A DNA stretch of 64,000 nt, taken from Streptomyces sp. NBC_01445 (lineage in GTDB: Bacteria; Actinomycetota; Actinomycetes; Streptomycetales; Streptomycetaceae). A program made the position numbers and the translations under genes. Under the pieces are notes generated by a model, which saw nothing but the letters and a program-made list of their open reading frames with translations, ran no database searches and was not told the DNA's origin. Where the stretch lies: NCBI RefSeq assembly GCF_035918235.1, contig NZ_CP109486.1:868001-932000 (forward strand), read 5' to 3'. Within the stretch, counting starts at the first letter, position 1. Each line of letters starts with the position of its first letter. Below, piece after piece: positions 4,896-49,840 of the stretch.

Positions 4896-4899
<4 letters not shown>

Positions 4900-10669: not shown

Positions 10670-11515
10670 TCAGACCGTGCCGGTGGCGTACCGGCTCGCG
10701 GGGCGGCTCAGTCCGAGCCGGGCCCGCAGGGTGGTGTCCGCCGGCTGCGGCGCGCCGGAGCGGCGCAGCGTGGGGGCGGTCGTGGTGAGGAACGGGTCGT
10801 GCGCGCCGCTCAGCGCGACGGTGAGACCGTCGGCGCCCGAGGCGGCCAGCAGGCCCTCAGCGTCGGCGTGGTCGAGCAGGGGGACGAGGACCTTGGCCCC
10901 GGGCGCCGACGACCGTACGGCGGGAACGTCCGCGGGGTCGTCGAGCAGTACGAGGTCGGCGTCCGCGGCGAGGGCGGGGCCCCGCACGGCGACGACGGGG
11001 TGCCCCTGGGGCGGGCGGGCGACGTTGAGCGGGCCGGCCACGTCGAAGTGGCGTCCGCGGTGGTCGAGTCGGTGGATCGTGTCGAGGCGCCAGTACTGGC
11101 CGTCGGCGCGGTCGTGGACGTACGCGTCGTCGTCGAAGCTGTCCCACAGCCCGCGGGCGACCTCGATCAGTTCGGCCGTACGGCCCTCGGCATCGGCGGC
11201 GCCCGCCAGCCAGCCGGTGCGGCCCCGGCCCAGGTGGTCGAGCGAGGCGACGATCCGGGCCACGTGGTAGGGCGCCTGGTCGTCGGGGAGCGGGGAGACG
11301 ATCAGGCCGATGCGGTCGGTGCGCGCGGCGAGGGCCGCGGCCAGCGTGGTCGTCTCGAACGGGGCCTGGCGGCCGGGCGACCCGGCCGCGTCGTCGAGGA
11401 TCAGCGCGTCGAGACCGGCGGCCTCCGCGGCGCGTGCCACGGCGGTGAGCCCGTCGAGTGTCGGTGCGTCCGTGCCGTGCGTGGCGATCCGGCCGACCAG
11501 AAGAGGGGTGGTCAT
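10670..11515 (-). CDS. snaB: Streptogramin A (PIIA) synthase subunit B, luciferase-like
   Basis: A 281-aa member of the luciferase-like flavin monooxygenase fold, with an N-terminal barrel motif [15 protein letters not shown] and the family block [21 protein letters not shown]. In S. pristinaespiralis, SnaA and SnaB form a heterodimer that uses FMNH2 supplied by SnaC to convert pristinamycin IIB (proline) to IIA (dehydroproline). Size and order fit that pair: the ATG overlaps the snaA stop by 4 bp and metK follows. The protein is shorter and less conserved than SnaA, as expected for the non-catalytic-like partner. The reductase gene snaC is not in the window. Confidence 0.85.
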
Positions 11516-12804
11516 GCGGTGGCTCCTGCCGTGGTGCGGTCGGCCGGCTGCCCCGGCACGGGGGCGTCGAGGCCGAGGTTCTCGCGCAGCGTGCTGCCTT
11601 CGTACGAGGTGCGGTACAGGCCGCGGCGCTGGAGCTCGGGGATCACGTGGTCGACGAAGTCGTCGGCGGAGCCCGGCAGATACGGGAAGTCGATGTTGAA
11701 GCCGTCGGCGCCGCGCCCGGTGAACCAGCTCTCCATGTGGTCGGCGAGCTGCTCGGGCGTGCCGACGACGATGTCGCCCATCAGCCGCAGGGCGAGCTGC
11801 CGGATGGACAGGTTCTCGCTGCGGGCGAGCCCCACCAGGCGCTCGGTCGTCGACTGGGACTGGTTGGTGTACGGGATGTCGGGCACGGGGCCGTCGATCG
11901 GGTACGCGCTCAGGTCGACGTCGCCGAGGAAGTCCTGCAGGGTGCGCAGCGCGACATGGTCGTGGGTGAGGTCCTGGAGCTCCTGCAGGCGCGCCTCGGC
12001 CTCGGCCTCGGTGGCGGCGACGATCGGTGCGAGGGTCGGCCACACGAGGACCTTCTCCGGGTCGCGCCCCTGGGCGGACACGCGCTTCTTGAGGTCGGTG
12101 TAGAAGCTCTGGGCGTCGGGGAGCGTGTTGTGCCTGGTGAAGATCACCTCGGCGTGGCGGGCGGCGAACTCCCGCCCCACGGGCGACGATCCGGCCTGGA
12201 TGATGACGGGGCGGCCCTGCGGCGGGCGGGCGATGTCGAGCGGGCCTTCGACGGTGAAGTGCTCTCCGTGGTGGCCGATGGGGTGCTCGCCGCTGTCCCA
12301 GAGCTGCTTGACGACGTCGATGAACTCCTCGGCGCGCTGGTAGCGCAGGCCGTGTTCCAGGTGCTCGGGGAAGCCGAAGTTCGCGGACTCCCAGGGGGCG
12401 GCGGAGGTGACGACGTTCCAGCCGGCACGGCCGCCGCTGAGGTGGTCGAGGGAGGCGAACCGGCGGGCGATGTGGGCCGGTTCGTTGTAGGTCGTCGTCG
12501 CGGTGGCGCACAGTCCGATGTGCTCGGTGGCGGCGGCGTACGCGGCGAGCAGCGTCAGCGGCTCGAAGTGCTCGGTGCGCGAGGTGCGGCACAGCGAGTC
12601 GAGGCGGGTGCCCCACACGGCGACGATGTCGGCGATGAACACCGCGTCGAACAGGCCGCGTTCCAGGGTCCGGGCGTTCTTCTTGTGGAACTCGAAGTCG
12701 AGCTGGGCGTCCGCCTGGGTCGACGGATGGCGCCAGGCGGCGACGTGACCGCCGGGGCCGTCGATGATGCCGGCGAGGGTGATGCGCCGACGGGGCGTGG
12801 TCAT
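11512..12804 (-). CDS. snaA: Streptogramin A (PIIA) synthase subunit A, luciferase-like
   Basis: This 430-aa protein belongs to the NtaA/SnaA/DszA branch of FMN-dependent luciferase-like monooxygenases. Typical blocks are NARTLERGLFDAVFIAD, the TATTTYNEPAHIARRFASLD segment, GRAGWNVVTS, RPPQGRPVIIQAGSS and the LADHMESWF region near the C-terminus. It probably oxidises the proline of streptogramin A together with SnaB; sequence alone does not exclude another sulfonate- or polyamine-type substrate, but the paired gene and neighbours support this. The ATG has a GGAGG Shine-Dalgarno 7 nt upstream (near 12811-12815). The left hairpin of an IS element begins about 20 bp upstream of the start codon, so any original promoter or operon link with the upstream NRPS gene has been altered. 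Confidence 0.87.
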   Translation of the reverse strand: MTTPRRRITLAGIIDGPGGHVAAWRHPSTQADAQLDFEFHKKNARTLERGLFDAVFIADIVAVWGTRLDSLCRTSRTEHFEPLTLLAAYAAATEHIGLCATATTTYNEPAHIARRFASLDHLSGGRAGWNVVTSAAPWESANFGFPEHLEHGLRYQRAEEFIDVVKQLWDSGEHPIGHHGEHFTVEGPLDIARPPQGRPVIIQAGSSPVGREFAARHAEVIFTRHNTLPDAQSFYTDLKKRVSAQGRDPEKVLVWPTLAPIVAATEAEAEARLQELQDLTHDHVALRTLQDFLGDVDLSAYPIDGPVPDIPYTNQSQSTTERLVGLARSENLSIRQLALRLMGDIVVGTPEQLADHMESWFTGRGADGFNIDFPYLPGSADDFVDHVIPELQRRGLYRTSYEGSTLRENLGLDAPVPGQPADRTTAGATA

Positions 12805-12824
12805 CGGATACCTCCGTGGATATT

Positions 12825-12840
12825 CCGCCCTTCAGGGCGG
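12825..12840. repeat. Left-end hairpin of the tnpB element
   Basis: Perfect 6-bp stem CCGCCC / GGGCGG around the loop TTCA. Subterminal hairpins of this kind are recognised by the single-strand transposase of IS200/IS605 elements. It begins 20 bp from the snaA start codon and leaves the snaA ribosome binding site intact. Confidence 0.6.
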
Positions 12841-12950
12841 CGAGGAATCGGTTTCCTGCGGGGCAGGGCAACGGGCTGCGATTTGCCGTCTGGGCGGATC
12901 GCAGTGCTCTGACCCGCAGGTTTGGCCGTAAGTAGTGGGGCGGCTACTTT

Positions 12951-14177
12951 GTGAGCGTGACCGGGGGCCAGGTGAAGCGGGCGTTCAAGTACCGCTTCTA
13001 TCCGAGTGATGCGCAGGCAGCGGAGCTGTCGCGCACGTTCGGATGTGTGCGCAAGGTCTACAACATGGCCCTGGCGGCCCGTGCCGAAGCCTGGGCGCGG
13101 CAGGAGCGGATCAACTACAACCAGACGTCCGCACTGCTCACCGAGTGGAAGAAGACCGAGGAACTCGCCTACCTCGGCGAGGTGTCCTCGGTGCCGCTCC
13201 AGCAGACGCTGCGGCACCTGCAGACGGCATTCGCGCACTTCTTCGCCAAACGGGCCCGGTACCCGCGGTTCAAGTCCCGGAAGAAGTCGCGTAAGTCCGC
13301 CGAGTACACCACGTCGGGGTTCCGCTTCCGGGACGGCGAGGTCACGCTCGCCAAGATGACGGAGCCCCTGTCGATCGTGTGGTCGCGGCCTCTGCCTCAC
13401 GGGGCGGCCCCGTCCACGGTGACCGTGTCCCAGGACGCGGCCGGCCGCTGGTTCATCTCGATGCTCTGCGAGGACGCGACTGTTCAGCCCCTGCCCACCT
13501 CCGGCACGGCGGTGGGCATCGATGCGGGACTCACCCATCTGCTCACCCTGTCCACCGGCGAAAAGATCGCCAACCCCCGGCACGAGCGGCGGGACCGGAC
13601 CCGGCTCGCCAGGGCCCAGCGGGAACTGTCCCGCAAGACGCCGGGCAGCAACAACCGGGCCAGGGCCCGCCGCAAGGTTGCCAAAGTGCACGCGAAGATC
13701 GCCGACCGGCGCCGGGACCACCTGCACAAGCTGACCACTCGACTCGTGCGTGAAAACCAAACGCTCGTGATCGAGGACCTGACCGTGAGAAACATGGTCA
13801 AGAACCACACCCTGGCGCGCGCGATCAGTGACGCGTCCTGGGCCGAGTTCCGGAGCATGCTGGAGTACAAGGCAGCCTGGTACGGGCGGGATGTGGTCGC
13901 AGTAGACCGCTTCTTCCCCTCCTCCAAGCTGTGCTCCGCCTGCGGTGCACTCGCCGGGCGCATGCCGCTCAACATCCGCACCTGGACGTGCGAGAACTGC
14001 GGAACGACCCACGACCGGGACGAGAACGCAGCGAACAACCTTCTGGCCGCCGGGCTGGCGGCAACGGCCTGTGGAGCCGGTGTAAGACCTCAACGGAGAA
14101 CTCCGGGCGGGCAATCGACGATGAAGCAGGAAACTCCACGGCGCGAGCCGCAGGAACCCTCTCCCCTCAGGGAGTAG
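12951..14177 (+). CDS. tnpB: TnpB RNA-guided nuclease-like protein (IS605 OrfB family)
   Basis: The 408-aa protein has the TnpB plan: an N-terminal helix-turn-helix region (KYRFYPSDAQAAELSRTFGCVRKVYN), a RuvC-like nuclease core with the three acidic sites GIDAGL, VIEDLTV and DRDENAANN, and a C-terminal zinc ribbon with cysteines in CSACG and CENCG. All three acidic residues and the four cysteines are present, so it may be active. TnpB is the ancestor of Cas12 and cuts DNA guided by an RNA from the element's right end. The start is GTG at 12951, since no ATG lies nearby; slightly later GTG codons are possible. It is transcribed opposite to the surrounding streptogramin genes. Confidence 0.9.
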   Translation: MSVTGGQVKRAFKYRFYPSDAQAAELSRTFGCVRKVYNMALAARAEAWARQERINYNQTSALLTEWKKTEELAYLGEVSSVPLQQTLRHLQTAFAHFFAKRARYPRFKSRKKSRKSAEYTTSGFRFRDGEVTLAKMTEPLSIVWSRPLPHGAAPSTVTVSQDAAGRWFISMLCEDATVQPLPTSGTAVGIDAGLTHLLTLSTGEKIANPRHERRDRTRLARAQRELSRKTPGSNNRARARRKVAKVHAKIADRRRDHLHKLTTRLVRENQTLVIEDLTVRNMVKNHTLARAISDASWAEFRSMLEYKAAWYGRDVVAVDRFFPSSKLCSACGALAGRMPLNIRTWTCENCGTTHDRDENAANNLLAAGLAATACGAGVRPQRRTPGGQSTMKQETPRREPQEPSPLRE

Positions 14178-14188
14178 TGGGAAGTCAA
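14161..14188 (+). ncRNA. Right end and probable 3' scaffold of the TnpB guide RNA
   Basis: A hairpin CTCCC-CTCA-GGGAG (14161-14174) overlaps the last codons of tnpB and is followed by GAAGTCAA. In IS200/IS605 systems the right end encodes the omega RNA, whose guide is copied from the DNA just outside the element. The guide here would be about the 20 nt after 14188. This is inferred from family knowledge; the RNA start is not visible. Confidence 0.4.
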
Positions 14189-14229
14189 GTTTCGGTTCTC
14201 TCCCTAGGTAAGGTTCGGTGCGCTCGGCG

Positions 14230-17200
14230 TCAGTTCCTGACGGCGGACGCCAGGATCCGCGCGAGGGCGCGGACGTTGTCGCCGGTCAGCATCGTCACGT
14301 GGTTGCCCGGGACGACCCGGATGGCCAGGTCCTCGACGTGGTCCTCCCAGCCGAGGCCGGCCCGCGCGTGGAAGCGGTCGCTCTCGTCGTAGTCGGTGCC
14401 CTTGCCGAATCCGGTGTCCCCGGCGCGCAGCACGGCGACGGGGCCGGCGTACGGGCCCGGCCGGTAGCGCTGGACCGCCTCGACGCTGTCGCGCATCAGC
14501 GCGACCGGGTCGCCGCCGCCGTCGCCGCGCATCCACTCGGCGATCTGGGCGAGTTCGGTCAGATAGGAGGCGGAGCCGTCGGGTTCGGCGGTCCGCGCGT
14601 CGTGTTCGCCGTCCGGGTCCGAGGGCCGTGCGCCGGGGCCTTCCGCGTCCGGGGCCGGGGCGCGGCCCTCGGCGACGGCGCGCAGCTGGTTGGCGAAGGA
14701 GCCGTCGGCGTCGGCGTCGGTGAGTTCGCCGTCGGGGGCGCCGGCGTCGACCATCACCACCAGCGGCGGGCGGCCGCCCTCCTCGGTGATCCGCCGGGCG
14801 ATCTCGTAGGCGATGACACCGCCGCCGGAGAAGCCGCCCAGAACGATCCGCTCCCCCGAGTCCAGGGCGGGGCGCAACGCTTCGAGATAGAGCTCGGCGA
14901 GCTGCTCGGCCGACAGGTGCTCCGGCTCGGGGTCGTCCACGCGCGGGTCACGGATGCCGACCAGCGCCTCGGGGCCCTCGTAGCAGTGGGCGAGCTGCGC
15001 GTAGCAGGCGACCTGGCCGCCGGGCGGGTGGACGAGGTGGACGGTTCCCGCGCCGGGCCGCTCGGCGGGGCGCAGTGGTACGAGGACATCGGCGGGACCG
15101 GAGCCGGTGGTGTCCCGCGGCTCCTGGGTGAGCAGATGGGCGAGCTCACCGGCCCTGGGGTGGGCGAGGAGTTCGTCCAGGCGCAGGGTGCGTCCGGAGC
15201 GCAGGTTGAGCTCCCGCAGCAGCCGCATCGCCAGGAGCGAGTGACCGCCCGCCTGGAAGAAGTGCACACCGGGGTCGGCGACGGGGGTGCCGAAGACGGC
15301 CTGCCATGCCTCCTTCACCACCTGGGTCTGCGGTCCCTCGGGCCAGGTCACCGCCTCACCGGCGGCGTCGGCCACGGGCTCGGTGCGGTCCGCCATCCTC
15401 GGCAGGTCCGCCGGGGACAGCCCGGCGAGGATGTCGGCCACGGTCGTCGACTCGTCGGCCGTGTCGGGCAGCTCACGCAGCAGCCCGGCGCACTGGTCGA
15501 CAAGCAGGGCGGCGTCGGCGTCGGCGATCCGGCCGCGGTCGTACACGGTGGTGAGGACCAGGCTGCCGTCCACGTCGCGGAAGGCGAGGAGGGTGACCGG
15601 GAAAGCGGTCTGGGAACCGGCGGCCTCCGGGAGTTCCACGCGGATGCCGTGCGCGGCGAGCGTGGACTCCAGGTCGTCGGAGGAGCGCGGGTAGTTCTCG
15701 AAGACGATCAGGCTCTCGACGAGTTTCTCGTCCGCCCTGCGCCCGCTCCACTCGTGGATCTGTCCGGTCGACACCCACTCGTACGCGGCCATGTCGAGCG
15801 CCTGGTCGCGCAGTTCGGTCAGCAGTTGGGGCACGGTGTGCGCCGGGTCGACCTGGATGGTCATGGGCAGCGAGTTCATCAGCAGTCCCGGGAGCCGCTC
15901 GACGGAGTCGAGGGCGATACCGCGGCCCGAGACGGTGACGCCGAAACCGACCGGGGACGGCCCGTGGCCGCCGCCCGCCCGGTACAGCAGCAGCGCCCAC
16001 ACGGCCTGCAGCGCGCTGGACTCGGTCGCGGCGCGGGCGGCCGCCCAGGAACGCAGCCGGTCGGCCTCCGGGCGGCTGAGCCGGACCTCCGCGCGGCTCC
16101 AGCCGCTCTGGCCGGTCGCGGGGCCGGGGAGCGCGGGCCGCACCAGCGGAGCGGCCGCCGGCACCGCCGCCGACCAGAACTCCCGCGCCGGAGCGGTGTC
16201 CTGCTCGGCGAGCCAGCGCGCGTAGTCGCGGATGTCGGGGCGTCGCTCGCCGCCCGGCAGGGTGCCGTCGGCGAAGTAGGCCCGGTAGAACTCCTGGAGC
16301 AGGACCGACACACTCCAGCCGTCCAGCAGTACGTGATGGAACGTGATCAGCACGCGGGTCGACGGGGTCCCGGCGCCGTCCGGGTCGTCGACGAGCGTGG
16401 CCCGCAGGAGCCCCGGCACGCGCAGGTCGAAGCCGCGCACGCGGTCCTGCTCCATCAGCTCGTCCCAGTCGACGCTGCCGGCCGGGTGCCGGACGACGTC
16501 GGCGGTGACCCGGTCGTGCAGGACCAGGCACGGCGCGTCGTCCCAGTCGAACGCGGCCCGCAGCACGGTCTCGCGGTCGAAGACGGACTGCCAGGCGGCG
16601 GTGAACCGCTCGGTGTCCAGGGGGCCGTACCAGCGCCAGAACAGCTGCTCCACATAGCGGCCGCTGCCGGAGTGGGCGAGCGCGTCGAGGAGCAGGCCGT
16701 GCTGCTGAGGGGTGACGGGCACCGTCTCCGGCGGGTCCACGGCGGACGGGCCGGCGGCGATGGAGTCGGTCAGCGCCTCGGCACGGGACGGCTCGGCCGC
16801 GCCCGGGAGAGCGGCCGGGAGGCCCGGAGCCGTGATCTCGCCAGCGGACACGGCGTCCGGGTCGGCGCCCGCGAGGGTGGCCAGGACCCAGCGCATCTGG
16901 TCCACGAGCGCCTTGACGCCCGCCTCGTCGACACCGTCGGCGGGGCTGGGCACCCAGGTGAGCCCCATGCGCAGCCGGCCGCCGTGGACGATGCCGTACA
17001 CCTCGACGCCGTACACCCGCTCGCAGCGCGCGGAGTGCTCGCGCGGGATGGGGCGGCCGGACATGGTGAAGCCGCCGTCCGCACTCAACTGGTCGGCCTG
17101 ACCGTAGTAGTTGAAGCAGACGAGGGCGGGCGGCAGAGCACGCAGCTGGGTGCGAAGCGCGGGATCGGAGGAGAACTCGCGGCAGGCGCCGAAGCCGACG

Positions 17201-20200
17201 CCGCCGTCCGGCACGCCGGTCAGGCCGTCGGCGACCTGGGCGAGCCAGCGCTCCGGGTCCGTGGCGCGCTCGGCGGCGAGGACGACCGGGTGGATGGAGG
17301 TGAACCAGCCGACCGTGCGGAACAGGTCGTCGCGGCCGTGCCTGCCATGGGTCTCGACGTCGAAGGTCACCTCACGGGTACCCCGCCACCGGGCGAGTGC
17401 CTGGGCGAAGGCGCCGGTCATCACCTGGTGGACCTGCAGGCCGAGCTTACGGGGCAATGGTCCGATGAGGCGGGTGGTGGCCTCGGGGTCGAGGGAGAAC
17501 TCGACGCGGCGGATGTCCTGCTCGTCGGGCGCCGGGGTGGTGAGCAGCAGGCTCTGGGCCTCGCCGCGGGCGGCGGCCAGGGCGCGCCAGTAGTCGGCCT
17601 CGCCGGGGCGTGCGGCGACGGCGGGGAGGGAGGCGACCCACTCCTCGTAGCGGCACGCCTCGTCGGGCAGGGCGGGCAGTGTGCCGTCGGACAGGGACGC
17701 CAGTGCGTGCTCCAGGTCCTCCAGGAGGATGCGCCAGGAGACGCCGTCGACGACCAGGTGGTGGATGGCGACGAGCAGCAGGCCGTTGTCCTCGGGCCGA
17801 CGCCGGTCGTGGGCGAGGAGAGCGCGGACGTGGACGCCCTTGAGCGGGTCGAGGCTGCGCTCGATCTCTTCGAGGGCCGCGTCGAGTTCGCCGTCGTCGG
17901 TGACGTCGCGCTCGCGCAGGACGTCACGTGGGTCGTAGGCGGAGAACGGCGCGGCCCCGGTCATGTGGCCCTCGGAGAAGTCGCCGTGTGCGTCCGCCGT
18001 GAAGCGGGCGCTGAGCGCGGGGTGTGCCGCGACGACGGCCTGCAGCGCGAGGCGCAGCACGGTGGGGTCGACGGGGCGGTTGAGTTCCAGGAGCACCGAC
18101 TGGTTCCACTGGTGCAGGTCCGTCCTGATGTGCCGGAAGAACCAGGACTGCACCGGTGCGAGCGGGGAGACACTGCTGCCGCGGGTGCGGTCCGCGACCG
18201 CCGGTACGTCGGCGGCCGCCCCGGCGGTGGCGGGTTCGCCGGTGGGCTGCGGTGCGGCGTCGGCGTCCAGGTGTGCGGCGAGATCGGCCAGCACGGGATG
18301 GCGGTAGATCTCGCGCATGGCGAGGGTGAAGCCCTCGCGGCGCAGCCGGGAGACCATCTGCATGGCGAGGATCGAGTCGCCTCCGGCTTCGAAGAACTGC
18401 GCGTCGTCGCGCACGTCCCCGAGGAGCTCTCGCCAGACGCTACGGACGGCCGGCAGCGAGCTCCTGACGTCGGCACGCGGCGCGGGAGCGGCCGGCGCGG
18501 GAGCGGCCTCGGGCGATACGGCGGGCTCGACCGGCCCGGCGGGCTCGGCCTCGACGGCCGGCTCGCCCTGCGTCGCCAGCTGGTCGAGGGCCCGGCGGTC
18601 GGTCTTGCCGTTCGGCAGGACGGGGATGCGGGGCACCCGGTGGAAGTGGGCCGGGACCATGTGGGACGGCAGCAGCGGCCCGAGAGCCGCGCGCACGTCC
18701 GTGACCTCGGCCCGCGTCACCACATGGGCCACGATCTGGAGGCTGCCCCGGGCGTGGCGGGAGACCTGGACCGAGGCGTCCTGGACGGCGGGCAGCGACA
18801 TCAACGCCGCGCGGACCTCGCCCAGTTCGACCCGGTTTCCGTTGATCTTGACCTGGTCGTCGAGGCGGCCCAGGTGGGTGAGAGCGCCGCCCGGCAGGAG
18901 CCGGACCAGGTCCCCCGTGCGGTACACGGTGTCCGTGCGGCCGCCCACCTGCAGGGCGCGGTAGCGGTCCGCGGTGCGCTCGGGGTCCCCTACGTAGCCG
19001 TCGGAGACGGTGCCGCCCCCGATCCACAGCTCGCCCGGTGCGCCCGGCGGCAGTTCGCGCAGGGACTCGTCGAGCACGTAGGCGCGGATGTTGTCGAAGG
19101 GCACTCCGATCGGCACCTCGCCGCGGCGTGTCCAGAAGGAGTCGTCCCCGCGGCCCCAGGAGAAGACCGTGGAGTACGACGTCTCGGTCGGCCCGTAGGC
19201 GTTGTGCAGCCGGGCCGGGTGCGCCGCCTCGAAGGCGATGCGGAGCTCGTTGGGCAGTGACTCGCCGGTGGAGACGACCGTGCGCAGGGTGCGGTTGGCC
19301 GTGAACGCCTCCGCCTCCAGCAGCAGGCGCAGTTGGGAGGGGACGGCGTGCAGCAGCGTGACGCCGTGCCGCTCGATGGCCTCGGCCAGCAGGTCCGGAT
19401 CGCGTTCGGCGTCCGGTGGCGCGACGACCAGGCGGGCGCCCGACACGAGGGCGACGAGCATCTCGTGGGCGCTGACGTCGAAGGTGAAGGGCGCCTTGAG
19501 GAGCATCGCGTCGTCGGAGCCGATGCCGAAGTGCCGGACGGCGGCGAGGACGTCGGTGACCAGGGCGCGATGGCTGAGCTGGACGCCCTTGGGGGTGCCG
19601 GTGGAGCCGGAGGTGTAGAGGACGTGCAGCGCGTCGGCGGGCGCCGGTCCCTGCACGGCCGCCACGCCGGACCTGGCCAGTTCGGCCAGCGGCACCTGCT
19701 GCGGGCCCGCCGGGCAGGCCCCGGCGGTGTCGGGGGCGACGATCGCGAGCCGGATCCCGCTGCTGTCGACGATGTGGCGGCGCCGCGCCTCGGGGTGGGC
19801 GGCGTCCAGAGGCACGTATGCGGCACCGGTGCGCAGGATCCCGAGCATCGCGGCGACGGCCTCGTCGCTGCGGGGCAGCAGGACGCCGACCCGGTCGCCG
19901 GCGCGCACGCCGCGGGCGACGAGTCCGGCGGCGTACCCCTCGATACGGGCGTCCAGTTCGCGACGGGTCCAGCGGCGGTCGCCGAACTCGACGGCCACCG
20001 CGTCCGGGCGTGCCTGCGCGGCGGCGCGGATCAGTGTGTCGATGTCCGTGTCGTCGAGGGGGTGGTCGGTGGCGTTGAGGTGGTCGAGGGTGGCGCGGGC
20101 GCGCGGCCCGATCCCGTCGAGCTCGGCGACGGCACGGTCCGGCCCGCGCACCAGCTGCCGGGCGAGCTCGCAGACGTGCTCGGTGAAGGCCTCGGCGGTC

Positions 20201-21483: not shown

Positions 21484-21564
21484 CAGGTGTCTCCTGAGTC
21501 GGAATCCGAGGCTTGGGTTCGTCCGGGCACACCTCGGCCCGGTGGTCCGCACGGTCCGGGCACG

Positions 21565-21607: not shown

Positions 21608-21653
21608 GCGGCGCGCGACGGCGGACCGCCCGCCGTGCCGGACGGGCGGGGTG

Positions 21654-22976: not shown

Positions 22977-23191
22977 GCGGCGGCCTCGTCCATGGCGTCC
23001 ACGAGGCTCTTGGGCCGCATGTCGGTCCAGTTCTCGCTGATGTGGGCGAGCGCGCTCTCGCGGTCGGTGGCCGGCAGGGCGATGCTCCAGCCGGCGGGGA
23101 CCTCGGCGAAGGACGGCCACAGCGAGTACTGGCCCTCGTGGTTGACCAGGACGAGATACGTGCCTTCGGCGTCCTCGAAGGGGTTGCTCAT
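22973..23191 (-). CDS. mbtY: MbtH-like NRPS chaperone
   Basis: A 72-aa protein with the full MbtH signature: [10 protein letters not shown], the tryptophan in VPAGWS and SENWTDMRP. Such proteins bind A domains and help them fold and adenylate. It sits between pglD and pglE with ATGA overlaps on both sides, as the mbtY gene does in the pristinamycin cluster. One or more A domains of the three NRPSs probably depend on it. Confidence 0.93.
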
Positions 23192-27486: not shown

Positions 27487-27503
27487 GGTGTGTCTCCGAT
27501 CGT

Positions 27504-39500: not shown

Positions 39501-42053
39501 GAACTCCAGCTGTCCGTCCGCGTTCCAGCGGCCGAGGTCGCCGGTGCGGTACATACGGGTGCCCGCGGCGCCGTACGGGTCGGCGACGAACCGCTCGGCG
39601 GTCAGCACGGGCCGGTTCAGATAGCCGCGTGAGACGCCCGCGCCGGCCAGGTACAGCTCGCCGACGGCGCCGGGCGCCACCGGGCGCAGCGCGCTGTCGA
39701 GGACGTAGACGCGGGCCCCGGAGACGGGGCGGCCGATCGGGGCGGGCTCGGTCCAGGCCATCGGGTCGTCGGGCAGGGCGGTACCGGTCATCACATGGGT
39801 CTCGGCGGGCCCGTAGTGGTTGTGCAGCCGCCGCCCCGGCACGGCGGCGACGAAGTCGCGCACGGCGGGGCCGAGCGACAGGGCCTCACCCGCCTGGGCG
39901 ATGTGGCGCAGGGCGGGCAGGGTGCGGCCCGCTTCGGCGGCGGCCTCGGCGACGGCCTCGATGACGAGGCTGGGCGCGTACAGCTCGGCGACGTCGTGCT
40001 CGTCGAGCCAGGCGGTGAGCTGCTCCGCGCTGCGCCGCACGTCCTCGGCCGGGACGGCGAGGGTCTTGCCGTGCAGCAGGGTGGCGAGGATCTCCTGGGC
40101 GGCCACGTCGAAGCCGATGGTGGTGAACTGTGCGACGGCGGTGCCCGGTTCGCCGGGTATCTCCCGCTGGTGCCAGGCGAGCAGGTTGACCAGGGCGCTG
40201 CCCGGCATGACGACGGCCTTGGGGGTGCCCGTGGAACCGGACGTGTAGATGACGTACGCCGGGTGCTGGGGCAGCAGCGGCGTGGTCCGTTCGGCGTCGG
40301 TGAGGTCCGTGTCCGCGTAGGCGAGCAGGTCCTGGCCGCTCTCCTCGCCGGTGAGGACCACGGCGGGCCGGGCGTCGTCCATCATGAAGGCGATGCGCTC
40401 GGCCGGGTAGGCGACGTCCACCGGGAGGTAGGCGGCGCCGGTCTTGAGGACGGCGAGCAGCGCCACGTACAGGTCGAGGGAGCGCGGCAGCCGCAGCGCG
40501 ACGGTCTCCTCGGGGCCCGCGCCCTGCTCGACGAGTCGGCGCGCCAGCCGGTTGGCGCGCGCGTTCAGCTCGGCGTACGTCAGCGACTCGTCGCCCACGG
40601 CCAGGGCGGTGACGCCGGGGGTGCGGGCGGCCTGTTCCTCGAACAGTGCGGCCAGGGTGCGCTCGGGTGCCGGGGCGCCGCTCGCGTTGAACTCCTCGAC
40701 GACCAGGCGGCGTTCGTCGCCGGACAGCAGGTCGAAGCGGCCCACGGGCAGGTCGGCGCCGTGCTCGGCGATGTCGGACAGCAGCGCGTCGAGCCGCCCG
40801 AGCAGCCTGCGCGCGCCCGCCTCGTCCACCACGTCGCCCCGGTGGTCGAGGCGGAAGCGGATGGTGTCGCCGGGGATGGCGAGCAGGCTCAGCGGGTAGT
40901 GGGTGGCGTCGCCGACCTCGAAGCCCGCGAGGCGCAGGCCCCGGGACTCGGCGCGCAGGACGGCCGGGTCGAGGGGATAGTTCTCGAACACCACGACGGT
41001 GTCGAAGAGTTCGCCGGTGCCGGCCGCCGCCTGCACCTCGGTGAGGGACAGGTGCCGGTGCTCGATCAGAGCGGCCTGCTCCTGCTGGACGCGGCCGAGG
41101 AGCTCGCCGAGGGTCTCGGACGGGCGGACGCGGACGCGGACCGGCAGGGTGTTGATGAACATGCCGATCGTCGACTCGATGCCGGGTATCTCCGGCGGGC
41201 GGTGGGCGACGGTCGCGCCGAACACGACGTCGTCGCGGCCCAGTTCACGGCCGAGCAGCAGCGCCCAGGCACCCTGCACCAGCGTGTTGGGGGTGATGTT
41301 GCGGGAGCGGGCGAGCGCCGTGAGCCGAGTGGTGGTCGCGGCGTCGATCTCGTGCCAGATCTGGCCGGGCAGGGCGGACCCGCCGGCCGCGCCCCGGCCG
41401 GCTCCGGCGCCCGCGACCAGGCTCGGTCCCTCGAGATCCGCGAAGGCGGCGCGCCAGGCGGCGCGCGCCGCGTCGTCGTCGCGCCCGGCGAGCCAGCCCA
41501 GGTAGGCGCGGTAGGGGGTGACGGGCGGCAGGCCCGCGTCATCGCCGAACTGCCCGTAAAGCGTGAACAGTTCGCGTACGAGCAGCGGCATCGACCAGCC
41601 GTCGAGGAGCAGGTGGTGCGTGGTGAGGACGAGCTTGTGGTGCTCGGGGGCGAGGGCGAGCAGCCCGAAGCGGATCAGTGGCGGGGCGCCCGGGTCGAAG
41701 CGCTCGGCGCGGTCGTCGGCGACGTACGCCGCGACGGCGCGCTCGCGCTCCTCGTCGCCGAGCCCGGTGAGGTCGCGGGTCCGCCAGGGCAGCGGCACCT
41801 CGTGGGGCACGAACTGGACGGGCCGTTCGACGTTCTGCTGCCAGAAGCCCGCGCGCAGGTTGGGGTGGCGGCGCAGCAGGGTGCGGGCGGCCGCCAACAG
41901 GTCGTCCTCTGCGAGCGGGCCGCGCAGCTCGAAGACCATCTGGACGGTGTAGACGTCCGTGCCCTCGGCCTCGGCGCCGTAGGTGACCTGGAAGAGGAGA
42001 CCTTCCTGGAGCGGGGACAGGGGCAGAACGTCGGCGAGTCCGGACTGCGTCAT
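27504..42053 (-). CDS. snbDE: Four-module NRPS for streptogramin B (Pro, N-Me-Phe-like, Pip, Phg) with TE
   Basis: 4849 aa. Modules: C-A-T (about 1-1045), C-A-NMT-T (1055-2475), C-A-T (2490-3520) and C-A-T-TE (3535-4849). The first C ([10 protein letters not shown]) is of the type that accepts a D-residue and follows an E domain on the partner protein. A-pocket readings by eye are A3 D-V-Q-Y-A-A-H-V-M-K (Pro), A4 D-A-W-A-I-A-A-V-C-K (Phe/Tyr-like), A5 D-F-Q-F-L-G-V-A-V-K (pipecolate, close to D-F-Q-L-L-G-V-A-V-K) and A6 D-I-Y-L-W-G-L-L-G-K (no match recalled; phenylglycine by context). A4 has an N-methyltransferase (EIGCGTG near 2033) inserted before its end. TE has GWSFGG near 4669 and a His late in the domain, fit for lactone closure onto Thr. 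The ATG overlaps the snbC stop. The residue order equals pristinamycin I / virginiamycin S residues 3-6. Confidence 0.93.
30470..30680. repeat. Near-identical C-domain segment, copy in module 6
   Basis: About 200 nt encoding the C-domain stretch around [14 protein letters not shown] are almost identical to 33605-33860 and, in the second half, to 37980-38155. Only scattered changes are seen. This points to recent duplication or gene conversion between modules. Confidence 0.75.
33605..33860. repeat. Near-identical C-domain segment, copy in module 5
   Basis: Matches the module 6 copy at 30470-30680 over about 200 nt, and the module 4 copy at 37980-38155 through the segment that ends in the sequence for NRPS residues [20 protein letters not shown]. 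Confidence 0.75.
37980..38155. repeat. Near-identical C-domain segment, copy in module 4
   Basis: About 175 nt are nearly the same as the matching part of 33605-33860. It covers the region for [11 protein letters not shown] back to the [11 protein letters not shown] block of the C domain. Confidence 0.7.
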
Positions 42054-45000
42054 CGGGCTACCTTCCAGGCGGCTTCGAGCTGGTCGATCTGGTCCTGGCT
42101 GAGTGAGACCAGGGACAGGTCGGAGGGAGTGATGCCGCCCGCGTCGGGACGTTCGGCATGGGTGACGAGGGCCTTGAGGGCGCGGAACCAGGTCTCGCCG
42201 AGGTCGCGCACGGCGGCCTCGTCGAGGAGCCGGCCCGCCCAGGTCCACACGGCCTGCAGCCGGGGGCCCGAACTCCCGTCACGGGTGAGGGCGTTGACCT
42301 CGACGGCGTGCGCCAGGGGCAGATCGGCGTCGGTGCCGTCGCCGATCGCGTCGGCGTCGGGGGCGGCGGTCCACAGACCGCCCTCCTCACCGAGGAACCG
42401 GCCCAGGTAGTTGAACCCGAGGTCGGGCGTGCCGTGCGGGGCGAGCGCGGCGAGGCTGCGGCCGGTGCGGGCGTCGAGGTGACGGAGCAGGCCGTGGCCG
42501 ATGCCGCCGTCGGAGATCTCGCGCAGCTGCTCCTTGATCCGCTTGACGGCCTGCCCTGCGGCGGGGCCGCCCGCGAGGGCGTCGGCGCGGTCGAGGGCGC
42601 CGGGGGCCAGCCGTACGGGGTACATGCTGGTGAACCAGCCGACGGTGCGGGAGAGCTCGGCGCCGCTGCCGCCGGGCTCGCGGCCGTGCCCTTCGAGGTC
42701 GATGAGGACGGCGTCGACGTCACCGAGGCCCCGGCGGCGGCGCCAGTCGGCGACGGCGAGCGCGAACGCGGTGAGCAGGACGTCGTCGACGCGCCCGTTG
42801 AACGCGGCGGTGACGGTGGTGAGCAGCGCGGAGGTGGTCGCGCCGTCCAGGTCGATGCTCAGGCTGCGGGCGGTGGCGGCGGTGTCCAGCCCCGGGTCGA
42901 GCGGCTGCGCGGTCACGGGCGCGGCGCCACCGGCCAGCGTCCTGGTCCACAGGGCGAGTTCGGCCGTCCGTTCGGGCCGCGCGGCCTCTTCGGCGAGGTA
43001 GCGCGCCCAGGCGCGGAAGGGCGTGCCGACGGGCGGCAGGGACCCGGTGACGCCCGGCTCCGTGGCCTCCCAGGCCGCCTTCAGGTCGGGCAGCAGGATG
43101 CGCCAGGAGACGCCGTCGACGACCAGGTGGTGGAGGGTCAGCAGGAGGCGGCCAGGCCGGCCCGGGCCCGCGTCCAGCCAGACGGCCCGGCCGTTGCGCC
43201 CGGCGAACGGGTCGAGGCGGTCCCGGGCGGCCGCGGCTTCCTCGGCGGCCAGGGCGCGCAGCGCCGCGTCGTCGAGTCCGGCGGCGTCCACGCGGCGCAC
43301 CCAGTCCTCGGCGTGTGCGCCGCCGGGGGCGTCGATCCGCATCGACCAGCTGTCGCCGTCGCGCGTGAACACCGCGCGCAGCACGTCGTGGTGGTCGATG
43401 AGGGTGCGCAGCGCGGCGACGAGCCGGGCCTCGTCGAGCTCCGCGGGGACCGCGACCACCATCGACTGGCTGAACGCCTCGACGGGGCCGCCGCGTTCGC
43501 GCAGCCAGTGCATGATCGGGGTGAGCGGTACATCGCCCGTCGCCGCCGACGCGAGGGCTCCCTGCCGGGGTGGGGCGGGCTCCTCGGCGAGGGTCTCGGC
43601 GACGCCGGCGAGCGCGGCGACCGTCTTGTGCTCGAAGACCTGCGTGGCGGTCAGCGAGAGCCCTGCGCGCCGGGCCTTGCCGACGAGCTGGATGACCATG
43701 ATGCTGTCGCCGCCGCGGTCGAAGAAGCTGTCGTCGATCGAGACGCCGTCGGCGCCGAGCACCTCGGCGAACAGCACCGCGAGCAGCTCCTCGCGCGGGG
43801 TTCGCGGGGCGCGCCCGGCCGATTCGGCGGCGCCGAAGTCGGGGGCGGGCAGGGCCCGCCGGTCGAGCTTGCCGTTGGCGGTGAGCGGCAGCGCGTCCAG
43901 GCCCACGAACGCGGCGGGCACCATGTAGTCGGGCAGCGCCGCCGCGACGTGCCGGCGCAGCACGGCGGTGTCGACGTCGGCGCCGGGCGCGGCGACGACG
44001 TAGGCGACGAGCCGCTTGGCGTTGTTCGCGAGGGACCCGTCCTCGCGGACGAGGACGGCGCACTGGGCGACGCGCGGGTGGGCGCCGAGCACGGACTCGA
44101 TCTCGCCGAGCTCGATCCGGAAGCCGCGCACCTTGACCTGGTGGTCGGCGCGGCCGAGGAACTCCAGGATGCCGTCGGGGCGGCGGCGCACCAGGTCGCC
44201 GGTGCGGTACATGCGGGCGCCCGGCGCGGCCGCGAACGGGTCGGCGACGAACCGCTCCGAGGTGGCGTCGGGCCGCTTGAGGTAGCCGCGGGCGAGCCGG
44301 GCGCCGCCGATGTACAGCTCGCCGCTCACGCCGGGCGGTACGGGGCGCAGCAGGTCGTCGAGGACGTGGCAGGTGGTGTTGTCCAGGGGGGTGCCGATGG
44401 GGACGGTGCTCTCCTGCTCCCAGGGGGCCCGCATGAAGTGGTGGGTGGCGAAGGTGGTGGCCTCGGTGGGTCCGTAGCCGTCGACGACCATCGTCGTCGG
44501 GGACGCCGCGAGCACCCGGCTGACGGCGGCCGGGGAGACGACGTCGCCGCCGGTCCACACCTCGCGTACGCCGGTGAAGCAGCCGGGGGACTCCTCGGCG
44601 AGCAGGTTGAACAGGCCGGACGTGAGCCACATGCCGGTGACCCTGCCGTCCACGATCGCCCGTTCCAGGGCCCGGGTGTCCAGGTCCCCGGGGGGCGCGA
44701 CGACGACGGCGCCGCCGGACAGCAGGGGCACCCACAGCTCGTACTGGGAGGTGTCGAAGGAGTACGGGGAGTGGAGCAGCACGCGCTCCTGGTTGCCGGT
44801 GCGCCAGCAGTGGTCGGCGGCGAGGACGCCGACGTCGCCGTGTGTGATGGCGACGCCCTTGGGGTTGCCGGTGGAGCCCGACGTGTACATCACGTAGGCG
44901 AGCTGGTGCGGGTGGGCGGGGACGACGGGCAGCGCGTCGCCCTCGTCCGGGAGCGCGTCGACCACGAGTACTTCGGCGTCGCCCGCCCAGGACGCGCAGG

Positions 45001-48000
45001 CGTGTTCGGCGTCGGTGACACGGTCGGTGAGCAGGACGCGCGCGCCGACGTCGCCGGTGATCAGGCCCATCCGGGCGGCCGGGTAGCGGGTGTTGAGCGG
45101 CACGTAGAACCCGCCGGTGCGCAGCACTGCGAGCAGGGACACGACCAGGTCGGCCGAGCGCTGCTGAAGGACGGCGACGGCCGACTCGCGGCCGATGCCG
45201 GACTCGGCGAGCCGCCGCGCGAGCCGCCCGGACCTCAGGTCGAGCTCGGCGTAAGTGAGTTCGGTGCCGTCGTCGCCGACCACGGCGACGGCGTCGGGGG
45301 TGCGGGCGGCCTGCGCGGCGAACTGCTCGGCGAGCCCGGTGGCCGGGACGGGCCTCGCGGTGTCGTTGTAGTGGGCGAGCAGGGCGCTCTCGGTGGCGTC
45401 GAGGAGCTCGTGGGCGCCGACGGGCGTGTCGGGGGCGGCGACGGCCGCGTCGAGCAGGGCGAGGAAGCGGCGTACGACGGTCTCGGCGGTGGCCCGGTCG
45501 TACAGCGCGACGTCGTACTCGAGATCGCCGTCGATTCCCGCGAACTCCCCCGCGCCGGTGCGGTGCTCGACCACGTTGAAGGTGAGGTCGAACTTGGCGA
45601 CGCCGAAGTCGACCGGCTCGCGCCGGACCTCGACGCCCCGCAGCTCGGCGGGGGCCTCGAAGTCCTGGTAGGAGAGGACCACTTGGAACAGCGGATGGCG
45701 GGCGGCCGAGCGTTCGGGCTGGAGCCGCTCCACGACGCGGTCGAAGGGCACGTCCTGGTGGGCGTACGCGGCCAGGGCGGCGGTGCGGACGCGGGCGAGC
45801 AGTTCGGTGAAGGAGGGATCGCCCGAGGTGTCGGTGCGCAGCACGACGGGGTTGACGAAGAAGCCCACGAGGGCGTCGAGGGCGCTGTCGGGGCGTGAGG
45901 CGGTGGGGCAGCCGATGGAGATGTCGGTGCCCGCGCCCAGACGGCTGAGCAGCGCGGTCAGCGTGGCCTGGAGCACCATGTGGCAGGTGGATCCGTGAGT
46001 GCGGGCGAACGCGTCGATGCGGGCGTGCAGGGCGGGCGCGATGTCGAGAGGGACGGAGCCGCCGCGGTGCTCGGCCACCGGCGGGCGGGGCCGGTCGGCG
46101 AGCAGTTCCAGCTGGTCGGGCGCGCCGGCCAGGTTCCGCTCCCAGTGGGCGAGCTGGCGTCCGGCGAGGCTGCCCGGGTCCCGCTCGTCGCCGAGCAGGT
46201 CGCGCTGCCACAGGGCGAAGTCGGCGTAGCCGACCGGCAGCGGCGGGAGGTCGGGCGCGTGCCCGGCCAGCCGGGACGCGTACGCGGCGGACAGGTCGCC
46301 GAGCAGGGGGCGCAGCGACCAGCCGTCGCCGGCCACGTGGTGCATCAGCAGCAGCAGTACGTTGTCCCCGTCGGGCAGCGTGAACAGGTAGGCCCGGATG
46401 GGGAGTTGGCAGTCGAGGTTGAACGGGGTGCGGGCCGCGGCGGTGAGTTCGTCCGGCAGCCTCTCGGGCTCGATCCGGGACTCGATGACCCAGGGCCTGG
46501 CCTCCTCGGGCGGCAGCAGCCGCGGGGCGGCGCCGCGCTCCCCGCGGGGGTAGACCGTACGCAGGCTCTCGTGGCGGGTGACCAGGTCGTGCAGGGCCTC
46601 GCGCAGGGCGATCCGGTTGAGGGCGCCGGTGATCCGCAGGGCGATCGGCATGTTGTAGGTGGGTGCGGCCCCCTCCACCTCGCGCAGGACCCACATGCGG
46701 TGCTGGGCGTACGACATGGGGGGCTCGTCACCGTGCGCCGCGGGGCGCAGCGGGGGCCGGGCGGCCCTCGCTGCCCCGGCCACGCGTGCGGCGAGGCCGG
46801 CCGGCGTCGGCGCCTCGAAGAGGTCCTGGATGGTGATCTCGGCGCCGAGCGCCTCGCGCACGGCGCCGGTGAGCCGCCCGGCGAGCAGGGAGTGGCCGCC
46901 GAGGGTGAAGAAGTCGCTGTCGCCGCCGACGCGGGCGGTGTCGCCGACGCCCAGGACGTCGGCGAAGATCCGGCGCAGTGCCTCCTCCTCGGGTCCTGCG
47001 GCGGGCGCGGCGGCCTCGCGGGGCTCGTCGGGAGCGGCGGGCGCGGGCAGCACGGCCCGGTCGAGTTTGCCGTTGGCGGTCAGCGGCAGCGCGTCGAGCG
47101 GGGTGAAGGAGGCGGGCACGCAGTGTGCGGGCAGCGTCGCGGCGAGCAGGCGGCGCCAGTCGGCAGGGTCGGGGGTGTGTCCGGTGACGGGCACCGCGTA
47201 GGCGGCGAGCCGCTTGTCGCCCGGCCGGTCCTCCCGGACCACGACCGCGGCCTCGGCGACGCCGGGGTGCGCGACGAGCGCGGACTCGATCTCGCCGAGT
47301 TCGATGCGGAACCCGCGGATCTTCACCTGGTGGTCGCCGCGGCCCAGATAGTCGAAGGTGCCGTCGTCCAGGAGCCGCACCAGGTCACCGGTGCGGTACA
47401 TGCGGGTGCCGGGCGGGCCGTAGGGGTCGGCGACGAAACGGTCGGCGGTCAGGTCGGGGCGGCCGAGGTAGCCGCGGGCGAGGCCGGGGCCGGACACGTA
47501 CAACTCGCCCGTGAATCCGGCGGGAACGGGGCGCAGCGCGGAGTCGAGGACGCGGGTGCGCAGGTCGGTGAGGGGGCCGCCGACGAAGGACCGGGCACCG
47601 GGAACGGCGTGTTCCGGGCCGAGGGGCGCGCAGGTGACGTGCACGGTCGTCTCGGTGATGCCGTACATGTTGACCAGCCGGGCCGCGTCGGCGCCGCGCC
47701 GCGCGTACCAGTTCGCCAGCCGCGCGGGCTCCAGTGCCTCGCCGCCGAACACCACCTGGCGCAGGGCGAGTTCGGGGGCGTCGGCGCCGCGTTCACGGTC
47801 GGCGGTGTCGAGCTGGTGGAAGGCGGTCGGGGTCTGGCTGAGGACGGTGACCCGTTCGCGGGCGAGCAGGTCGAGGAAGCGGTCGGGCGAGCGGCTGACC
47901 GTGTACGGCACGACGACGAGACGACCCCCGTGGAGCAGCGCTCCCCAGATCTCCCAGACGGAGAAGTCGAAGGCGTAGGAGTGGAACAGGGTCCACACGT

Positions 48001-49840
48001 CGTCGGCGCCGAAGTCGAACCAGCGGCCGGTGGCGGAGAACAGCCGCAGCACGTTGGCGTGCGGGATCACGACACCCTTGGGCCGGCCGGTCGAGCCGGA
48101 GGTGTAGATGACGTACGCGGGGTGCGAGGCGTCCGCCCGGACCCCCGGGTCGGTGTCCGGGTACGCGCTCAGGTCCTGGCGCATCGCCTCGGGGTCGAGC
48201 ACGAGGACGGGCCGCGCGTCCTCGAGCATCCAGGCGCGCCGGTCCGCGGGGTAGTCGGGGTCCACCGGCAGGTAGGCGGCGCCGGACTTCAGAACGGCGA
48301 GCAGCGCGACGACCAGGTCGGGCGAGCGTGGAAGGGTGAGGGCGACGAGCCGCTCGGGTCCGGCGCCGGCCGCGACGAGGCGGTGGGCCAGGCGGTTGGC
48401 GCGGGCGTCGAGTTCGGCGTACGTGAGGTGGTCGCCCTCGTGGCTGACGGCGACCGCGTCGGGGGTGGCGGCGGCGCGGGCCACGAACCGTGCGTGCAGG
48501 GTGCCGGTCGCGGCCGCCTCCTGCGGGTCGCCGTCGGTCGGCGTCTCCCCGGCGTGCAGTCGGGCCAGGGGCGTGTCGGGGTCCGCGGCGGCGAGGGCGC
48601 GCAGGAAGCGGGTGAAGCGCTCCAGGTGCGCGGCGGTCTCCGCCTCGCCGTACAGGTCCGGGTTGGCCTCGACATCGATGCGCAGCCCGGTGTCGCCCGG
48701 CTCCTCGTACACGGAGAACTTCAGGTCGTCGACGGGTCCCGTGGACACCGGGTGCACGGAGGCGGCCGCCTCGCCGAAGTCCAGGGCCCGCTGATAGGGC
48801 ATCACATTGACGACCGGCCCGTAGCCGCGCTCACCGACCAGACCGAGGTCGCGGCGCGCCTCCTCGTACGGGTAGCGCTGGTGCCGCAGCACGGGGACGA
48901 GGGCGTCACGGACGTCGGCGACCAGCTCGGCGAGCGGGGCGGCGGGGCGCGGTGCGACGTACAGCGGGAGGACGTTGGCGACCATGCCGGGGGTGCGGCG
49001 GGCGGCGGCGGTGAGGCGCGCGGTGACCGGCATTCCCAGGGTGATGCCCGGCTCTCCTGTCAGCCACTGGACGTACGCGGCGACAGCGGCGGGCGCGACG
49101 ACCTGCCAGCCGGTCTCGGCGGCGGCGGCGACGGCGGTGAGACCCGCCAGCACGTCACGGCCCAGGAAGGCGGTGTGCCGCCGGGCGTGCGGCGCGGCGG
49201 GCGCGGTGGACCCGGCGAGAGTGACGGGAGTGCGGCGCGGGGCGGCGAGCCAGTGTGCGCGGTCCCGGTCGTGGGCGGGCGAGTCGCGCCACGCGGCCTC
49301 GGCGTCGGTCAGCTCGCGTGCGGAGCAGTCGGGTCCGGCGACGGCACCGGTGTAGGCGCGGGCGACGCGTTCGGCGACGAGCCGGAACCCGTAGCCGTCG
49401 ATGAGGAGGTGGTGGACGTGGCTGAACCAGCGGTGGGACCCCTCCCCCAGTGTGAACAGCGCCTGGGTGAACAGGGGCCCGCCGCCGGCGGCGTCGAGGG
49501 GGCGCGCGATGACGTCCCGCATCCAGGCGTCGGCGGCGGCCGCCGGGTCGGGCGAGTTGCTGACGTCGATCCGGTGGACCGTGAAGGAGGGGTCCGCGTC
49601 GGCGCTCTGTGTGACGGTCCCGTCGGCTTCGGGGTGGAAGCGCAGCCGCAGCGCGTCGGTGCGGGCGATGACGTCGCGCAGCGCCCTCTCGAAGCGGTCC
49701 GCGTCCAGCGGGCCGGTGAGTTCGACGTACTCGCCGGTGTTGTAGACGGGGCTGTGCGGGTCCCGGGCCTGGGCGAACCAGATGCCGAGCTGGGCCGCCG
49801 TCAGTGGCAGACGCGTGCCGTCAGGAACGGGAACAGACAC
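42050..49840 (-). CDS. snbC: Two-module NRPS for streptogramin B (Thr, D-Abu/Val-like)
   Basis: 2596 aa, order C-A-T-C-A-T-E. The first C ([10 protein letters not shown] near 145) resembles the starter C of EntF-type synthetases, which takes an aryl acid from a separate carrier; in streptogramin B this would be 3-hydroxypicolinate. A1 pocket reads D-F-W-S-V-G-M-V-H-K, close to the threonine code D-F-W-N-I-G-M-V-H-K. A2 reads D-T-Y-W-W-G-G-T-F-K, close to valine-type codes and fitting 2-aminobutyrate. T domains are at GGHSLL (near 983) and GGDSIM (near 2045). The E domain ([10 protein letters not shown] near 2243, VGWFTSMYP) makes the second residue D. This equals SnbC of pristinamycin I. Start is GTG with a GGGGGAAGA SD-like stretch; a SARP-type promoter lies just upstream. 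The stop overlaps the snbDE ATG. Confidence 0.92.

Follow-up and report, generated by a model that had tools for sequence, protein, structure and literature searches.

Production of pristinamycins by Streptomyces sp. SW4 has been confirmed by liquid chromatography-tandem mass spectrometry (LC-MS/MS) and high-resolution mass spectrometry (HR-MS) (PMC6256442). In pristinamycin biosynthesis, papA, papB, papC and papM serve 4-dimethylamino-phenylalanine (DMAPA), pipA and snbF serve oxo-pipecolate, hpaA serves 3-hydroxypicolinate, and SnaD is the last module for pristinamycin II (PII) (PMC6963833). The virginiamycin S or VisG-type peptide contains phenylglycine (Phg) (PMC7089894). A cluster of strain YIM 130001, closely related to the locus described here, has been listed as streptogramin with CB01635 as nearest hit (PMC6306032), so that loci of this type have been published before. 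A first-pass annotation of the DNA analysed here had likewise regarded the system itself as known.

We analysed a stretch of 64,000 nucleotides of Streptomyces sp. NBC_01445 (contig NZ_CP109486.1, positions 868,001 to 932,000; G000:C2:868001-932000), hereafter the window, from a genome of 11.47 Mb in two contigs (C1 and C2). We consider it highly probable, judging by the sequence and by orthology to the proven producer SW4 and to S. pristinaespiralis, that the window forms the central part of a pristinamycin-type streptogramin supercluster for pristinamycin I and streptogramin A located on a linear megaplasmid. The locus is a further example of a known system, not a new system.

Modular organization of the streptogramin B synthetases

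Gene calls were fixed by protein matches to plasmid NZ_CP109590.1 of Streptomyces sp. NBC_01361. No internal stop was found in any of the frames read (29 on the minus and 3 on the plus strand); for pglC, pglD and one FAD monooxygenase gene, the ends were set one codon beyond the coordinates first used for frame reading. Two intact nonribosomal peptide synthetase (NRPS) genes, with adenylation (A), condensation (C), carrier (PCP), epimerization (E), methyltransferase (MT) and thioesterase (TE) domains, would account for the streptogramin B backbone (Abu, aminobutyrate; Pip, pipecolate):

42050..49840, minus strand: NRPS1, SnbC-like, 2596 aa, C-A(Thr)-PCP-C-A(Abu)-PCP-E (Pfam, motifs, pocket codes)
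27504..42053, minus strand: NRPS2, SnbDE-like, 4849 aa, C-A(Pro)-PCP-C-A(aryl-Ala)-MT-PCP-C-A(Pip)-PCP-C-A(Phg)-PCP-TE (Pfam, pocket codes)

In NRPS1, Pfam detected two domains each of the A and PCP types as well as three Condensation-type domains, the last of which, after module 2, is an E domain by place and motif. NRPS2 contains four C, four A and four PCP domains, together with an MT domain within module 4 and a TE domain after module 6. Across the three synthetases of the window, HHxxxDG was present in all 10 Condensation-type domains and the carrier serine in all 8 PCP domains. The opening C domain of NRPS2 reads HHLLLDG, versus HHIAGDG in the C domains of modules 4 to 6, which would fit uptake of a D-residue from the preceding E domain.

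A-domain pockets were read via motif anchors, with GrsA numbering; the tenth letter, K, is the A10 lysine, present in all six window domains, and relatives were read at the first nine positions only. The pockets are DFWSVGMVHK (module 1, Thr), DTYWWGGTFK (module 2, Abu, followed by the E-type domain), DVQLAAHVMK (module 3, Pro), DAWAIAAVCK (module 4, N-methyl aryl-Ala), DFQLLGVAVK (module 5, Pip) and DIYLWGLLGK (module 6, Phg). They resemble codes which we take to be those of Thr, Val-like or Abu, Pro, Phe, Pip and an arylglycine. With substrates assigned by pocket and orthology, the pristinamycin-type six-module layout is complete: Thr, D-Abu, Pro, N-methyl aryl-Ala, Pip and Phg, with E after module 2, MT in module 4 and TE last. 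This is the pocket order and the backbone that the first-pass annotation had proposed, and orthology to SW4 and S. pristinaespiralis bears it out.

The same pocket extraction was applied to the SW4 cluster (contig QKWM01000002.1), which served as proven producer. Five of the six modules are identical to those of the window at nine positions, and the Pro pocket, DVQLVAHVV, is equal at 7/9. All six pockets are alike in NBC_01361, S. xanthii and YIM 130001, and five of six in S. albogriseolus LBX-2, where Pro differs. The S. pristinaespiralis P0211 protein (4848 aa) has 80% identity to NRPS2 across 100% of its length; its Pro, aryl-Ala and Pip pockets are the same as ours, and its Phg pocket is DIFLWGLLG (one Y/F change). 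Since the last pocket, initially unmatched and assigned to Phg with the help of the phenylglycine cassette, is the same in SW4 and nearly so in S. pristinaespiralis, it is the Phg pocket. The best full-length matches of NRPS2 include S. pristinaespiralis. A dihydroxyphenylglycine end residue, hinted at by the DpgC-like PglA, was rejected because the Phg pocket equals that of SW4 and because no type III polyketide synthase (PKS) family was found among the window proteins scanned (26 of 32 frames, in part with only the best 25 families each).

Pristinamycin I versus virginiamycin S

Virginiamycin S has the same backbone order, with N-methyl-Phe where pristinamycin I has dimethylamino-Phe; its cluster has a module 4 for Phe and is not known to carry pap genes. 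The first-pass annotation had left the two open. The contig that holds the window also carries, 54-58 kb past its right edge (window +117774 to +122093), papA/B/C/M-like genes, namely one of PabB type and those for a chorismate mutase, a prephenate dehydrogenase and a PrmC-like methyltransferase. They are followed at +122113 to +127543 by genes for a DegT aminotransferase, an enzyme resembling dihydroxybenzoate (DHB)-AMP ligases, an ornithine cyclodeaminase (OCD)-type cyclodeaminase (family test made on the 100% identical NBC_01361 copy) and a P450, of the hpaA, snbA, pipA and snbF types, respectively (substrates by homology). SW4 matches reach 76-83% for these last four and 69-83% for the whole set of pap, pipA, snbA, hpaA and P450-type genes (+118 to +128 kb).

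We aligned NRPS2 with 12 relatives (57-99% identity, full coverage, 4656-4896 aa), taken from the 120 listed of 1118 scored, the other listed ones being longer. The module-4 pocket is DAWAIAAVC in 9 of the 13 synthetases and DAWTVAAVC in 4. In all 8 genomes scored by both tests with Ala in module 4 (G000; G169, which by coordinates is CB01635; G029, which is YIM 130001; G111; G137; G182; G003; and G005, which is SW4), a papM ortholog was found at 73-100% identity, while both genomes with Thr (G006, S. durbertensis, whose module-4 match sits on a different contig from its pglA, and G339) have only a PrmC-type match of 43-45%. Ala thus accompanies papM and Thr its absence in 10/10 genomes with both tests. 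Four genomes stand outside this count, G004 and G007 (best module-4 matches of 53% and 63%), G031 (no match at the limit) and G008; their papM matches of only 41-44% speak neither for nor against the pattern. Because the genomes are related, the pattern is a correlation and not ten independent events. Both the pap genes and the pocket of module 4 favour pristinamycin I, which narrows the initial assignment while keeping its backbone. The module-4 pocket signature may help tell pristinamycin I from virginiamycin S synthetases.

The phenylglycine operon

Downstream of NRPS2 lies a complete pglA-E operon in the published order (PMC7089894), with an mbtH gene inside it:

26086..27486, minus strand: pglA, DpgC-like dioxygenase, putative phenylacetyl-CoA oxidation (NCBIfam DpgC, 497.2 bits; PDB DpgC match)
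25031..26089, minus strand: pglB, E1 alpha, predicted phenylpyruvate to phenylacetyl-CoA (NCBIfam; 81% SW4 match)
24030..25034, minus strand: pglC, E1 beta (NCBIfam, protein matches)
23188..24033, minus strand: pglD, alpha/beta hydrolase, thioesterase by analogy (NBC_01361 annotation; weak NCBIfam matches)
22973..23191, minus strand: mbtH-like gene, A-domain helper (annotation of its NBC_01361 counterpart, 100% identical)
21654..22976, minus strand: pglE, pyridoxal phosphate (PLP) aminotransferase, predicted phenylglyoxylate to L-Phg (NCBIfam, protein matches)

The expected phenylglycine cassette is thus present in full and free of internal stops. The published route leads from phenylpyruvate to phenylacetyl-CoA (PglB/C), then through PglA, PglD and PglE; the same source uses two names for PglA, dioxygenase in the introduction and dehydrogenase in Table 1 (PMC7089894). 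PglA scores 497.2 bits against the NCBIfam equivalog (3,5-dihydroxyphenyl)acetyl-CoA 1,2-dioxygenase, below the cut-off of 530, and can be aligned over its length to DpgC proteins of solved structure. We take Glu189, Ile235, Arg254, Gly296 and Gln299 to be catalytic residues of DpgC; in the structure alignment all five are conserved in PglA. The score, the alignment and these residues therefore favour the dioxygenase name, and by analogy PglA would work like DpgC even though it is not filed as DpgC.

In YIM 130001 (L022; G002:C14, ~100476-102371), the operon is devoid of pglB and pglC, and pglD is reduced to its last 38 codons before mbtH. Since the cluster contig also lacks the hpaA-, P450- and SAM-cycle genes, this locus may be decayed and its remnant operon is only a hint. 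Other E1 beta genes (75% and 58%) are found elsewhere in this genome, and such copies exist in 8/8 genomes searched. We propose two rules, the conjunction of which we regard as possible though rather doubtful: (a) Ala versus Thr at position 278 of module 4, with Ile/Val at 299, would separate dimethylamino-Phe-loading from Phe-loading synthetases and co-vary with papM; and (b) PglA, like DpgC, would oxidise phenylacetyl-CoA and release phenylglyoxylate, PglD being helpful and not required, and E1 copies elsewhere in the genome could replace PglB/C. The YIM 130001 remnant operon would suggest rule (b) if this strain still makes Phg.

With a threshold of E 1e-145, PglA matches were found in 8 of 392 genomes sampled from the genus and in 1 of 394 sampled from the class, our own genome being counted in both; one of the 8, G031 (59%), has neither a module-4 match nor papM. 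In G137:C1, a single contig of 8.5 Mb, pglA occurs as two inverted copies (224962-226329 and 8306264-8307631), as does papM (393455-394315 and 8138278-8139138). Since the paired coordinates of both genes add to the same sum, 8,532,593, the supercluster seems to be present at both chromosome ends, inside a terminal inverted repeat; provided that this repeat reaches the ends, it would span at least ~390 kb.

Streptogramin A genes and the left flank

The genes named in the first-pass annotation, the interval of which starts at snaB, are present. Its count of six A domains was incomplete: a third synthetase brings a seventh A domain, and mbtH and a TnpB gene are to be added.

14230..21483, minus strand: NRPS3, SnaD-like predicted last module of streptogramin A, C-A-PCP-C-C-PCP-TE (Pfam, motifs)
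12951..14177, plus strand: IS605-type TnpB gene between snaA and NRPS3, outside the pathway (Pfam)
11512..12804, minus strand: snaA, pristinamycin IIA synthase subunit A (protein matches)
10670..11515, minus strand: snaB, second flavin monooxygenase subunit (NCBIfam; SW4 match)
9423..10637, minus strand: metK, S-adenosylmethionine (SAM) synthetase (NBC_01361 annotation and match)
8408..9391, minus strand: PfkB-type kinase, adenosine kinase by context (Pfam)
4896..8411, minus strand: metH (NBC_01361 annotation and match)
3988..4899, minus strand: metF (NBC_01361 annotation and match)
2601..4010, minus strand: ahcY, S-adenosylhomocysteine (SAH) hydrolase (NBC_01361 annotation and match)
600..2255, minus strand: first of two ABC-F ribosome-protection-like ATPases (NCBIfam 343.8 bits, below the 380 cut-off; annotation)
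1..483, plus strand: 3′ part of a vgb-like gene, putative streptogramin B lyase, which begins left of the window (frame; family tests on the 98.8% identical NBC_01361 copy)

The pocket of the seventh A domain, DVHHVTAYSK, is the same in SW4, and NRPS3 corresponds to SnaD by its place and its TE domain. SnaA is 92% identical to its SW4 counterpart and 94% to the YIM 130001 protein named pristinamycin IIA synthase subunit A; orthology to SW4 upholds the tie-in of snaA and snaB to streptogramin A. Further genes for this compound, encoding a trans-acyltransferase (trans-AT) PKS/NRPS, a hydroxymethylglutaryl-CoA synthase (HMGS), two enoyl-CoA hydratase (ECH)-like proteins (one annotated 'polyketide synthase'), an AT and a flavin reductase, are located between window +72 and +114 kb (NBC_01361 annotation and protein matches), and the set is matched in SW4. 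The gap between snaA and NRPS3 is only 36 bases in NBC_01361. The S. xanthii cluster has a TnpB gene too, at a different place.

The ahcY-metF-metH-kinase-metK block (2601-10637) looks like a portable SAM-recycling cassette. It occurs at 83-85%, with no snaA or snaB in the match, in 5 of the 8 plasmid records listed out of 129 with a match. The first ABC-F gene has a 92% match in YIM 130001 and no ortholog in the SW4 stretch. Within the cluster, the vgb-like gene (window 483 leftward to ~-485) adjoins the second ABC-F gene; it is matched on the S. xanthii plasmid (73%) and was not found in the SW4 stretch or on the YIM 130001 contig. Its product might contribute to self-resistance.

Proposed pathway and alternative explanations

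A free-standing ligase, encoded right of the window, would load 3-hydroxypicolinate. NRPS1 would add Thr and Abu and epimerise the latter, and NRPS2 would add Pro, N-methylated 4-dimethylamino-Phe, pipecolate (oxidised to 4-oxo) and Phg before its TE domain closes the ring to give pristinamycin I. For Phg, PglB/C would convert phenylpyruvate to phenylacetyl-CoA, which PglA would oxidise as DpgC does; PglD, or perhaps PglA itself, would free phenylglyoxylate for transamination by PglE. Pristinamycin I requires three methylations, for which the metK-kinase-metH-metF-ahcY block would regenerate SAM. NRPS3 would act as the final module of the streptogramin A trans-AT PKS/NRPS, the product PIIB presumably being oxidised to PIIA by SnaA/SnaB. 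A group of aromatic polyketide genes adjoins the NRPS1 side:

53401..64000, minus strand: type II PKS genes (aromatase, ketoreductase (KR), oxygenases, ligase, acyl carrier protein (ACP), chain length factor (CLF); two small genes on the plus strand), the group running on to ~66000 (Pfam, matches)

Virginiamycin S, with N-methyl-Phe at position 4, would share the backbone and agree with a Phe-like module-4 pocket. We rejected it as very improbable, given that pap genes are on the same replicon as the window and that module 4 has the DAWAIAAVC pocket shared with S. pristinaespiralis and SW4, and not DAWTVAAVC, the form found in both genomes (2/2) with a module-4 match and no papM. Equally improbable is a contribution of the type II PKS genes to the streptogramin, for example as a different acyl starter. 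These genes do adjoin NRPS1, and SW4 carries orthologs of CLF and ketosynthase (KS) on its pglA contig, ~25 kb away from that gene; S. albogriseolus JCM 4616 has its CLF ortholog and its streptogramin genes on separate contigs and is therefore uninformative. However, nowhere in the YIM 130001 genome does a CLF exceed 32% identity, its cluster contig has neither a KS nor an ACP ortholog, the S. xanthii stretch 135000-184999 contains no annotated KS, CLF or ACP pair, similar type II PKS gene sets occur on other plasmids, and the genes for the usual streptogramin precursors are present. We consequently rejected a novel acyl starter; the type II PKS genes probably constitute a separate, interspersed pathway.

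A decayed or silent supercluster yielding little or no product is unlikely. The TnpB gene between snaA and NRPS3 and the loss of pglB, pglC and most of pglD in the relative YIM 130001 would agree with it, but the frames read are uninterrupted and the matched proteins are 96-100% like those of NBC_01361. Given this identity and the 80% identity of NRPS2 to the S. pristinaespiralis protein, chance is no serious rival. Several considerations weigh against our assignment to a pristinamycin-type supercluster. Gene presence and orthology are observed, whereas the chemistry is predicted from the pristinamycin literature. Interference of the TnpB gene with transcription across the NRPS3-snaA junction is conceivable. 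The P0211 record is named 'amino acid adenylation domain-containing protein', its SnbDE label resting on organism, length and codes, and the protein comparison with S. pristinaespiralis covers the NRPS2 homologue.

Replicon and neighbouring genes

C2 is 1,036,854 bases long and both its ends are inverted repeats of ~2.48 kb (90% identity). The repeats are also similar to the start of C1 (91%) and to both termini of the NBC_01361 plasmid (82-83%). Together with the location of all three 16S matches found on C1, these ends strongly suggest that C2 is a linear megaplasmid. The supercluster extends far past both ends of the window, which is its core. From right to left, the minus-strand order is the type II PKS group (53401 onward), an acyl-CoA dehydrogenase gene, two further genes (below), NRPS1, NRPS2, pglA-pglB-pglC-pglD-mbtH-pglE, NRPS3, the plus-strand TnpB gene, snaA, snaB, metK, the PfkB kinase gene, metH, metF, ahcY and the ABC-F gene.

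50776..51594, minus strand: 4′-phosphopantetheinyl transferase (NBC_01361 annotation; NCBIfam)
49945..50646, minus strand: response regulator adjoining NRPS1 (NCBIfam and NBC_01361 annotation)

The NBC_01361 genes annotated as ScbR, ScbA and SARP have counterparts on our contig with 97-99.7% identity; a gamma-butyrolactone receptor and SARP regulators are thus present. The aromatase and acyl-CoA dehydrogenase genes remain beside NRPS1 in YIM 130001 and S. xanthii, even with no KS, CLF or ACP found. Left of the window (~C2:798-851 kb), a gene set with an LnmK-annotated gene, an HMGS gene and two large synthetases, ~98-100% identical in protein to the NBC_01361 plasmid, resembles what we take to be the gene order of the leinamycin (LNM) cluster. 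CB01635, the genome of which was placed in the same species as the present one, has been called an LNM-producing strain (PMC8479088). No title or abstract in the literature searched states a module-4 pocket rule, a plasmid-borne streptogramin cluster or terminal repeats in S. pristinaespiralis; most subscription journals lie outside this coverage, so that the negative is no proof of absence.

Comparison with known systems

The analysis confirms that sequence alone is enough to recognize a streptogramin supercluster, and it contributes a pristinamycin-type locus carried by a plasmid. In practice it helps dereplication, since the expected products of this strain are a pair of antibiotics already known. 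The locus has the same gene kinds as the S. pristinaespiralis supercluster in the parts of its published descriptions available to us (snbA, snbC, snbDE, pglA-E, papA-C/M and sna genes); it differs in its location on a linear megaplasmid, the leinamycin-like cluster alongside and the vgb-like lyase gene. The pgl genes of CB01635 are 99-100% identical to those of the window. The NBC_01361 plasmid NZ_CP109590.1 matches it at 96-100% protein identity; it has no TnpB gene at this place and has elsewhere a different transposase gene with no counterpart here. The SW4 cluster matches the streptogramin, pap, pgl and SAM-cycle genes at ~62-92% identity (best segment of each protein; for NRPS1, the printed segment of 48% fell on a paralogous stretch and the A domains match at 80 and 92%), and its pockets are the same except Pro. 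In contrast to the present locus, the SW4 stretch read has neither the vgb-like gene nor an ortholog of the first ABC-F gene, and its type II PKS genes are placed differently.

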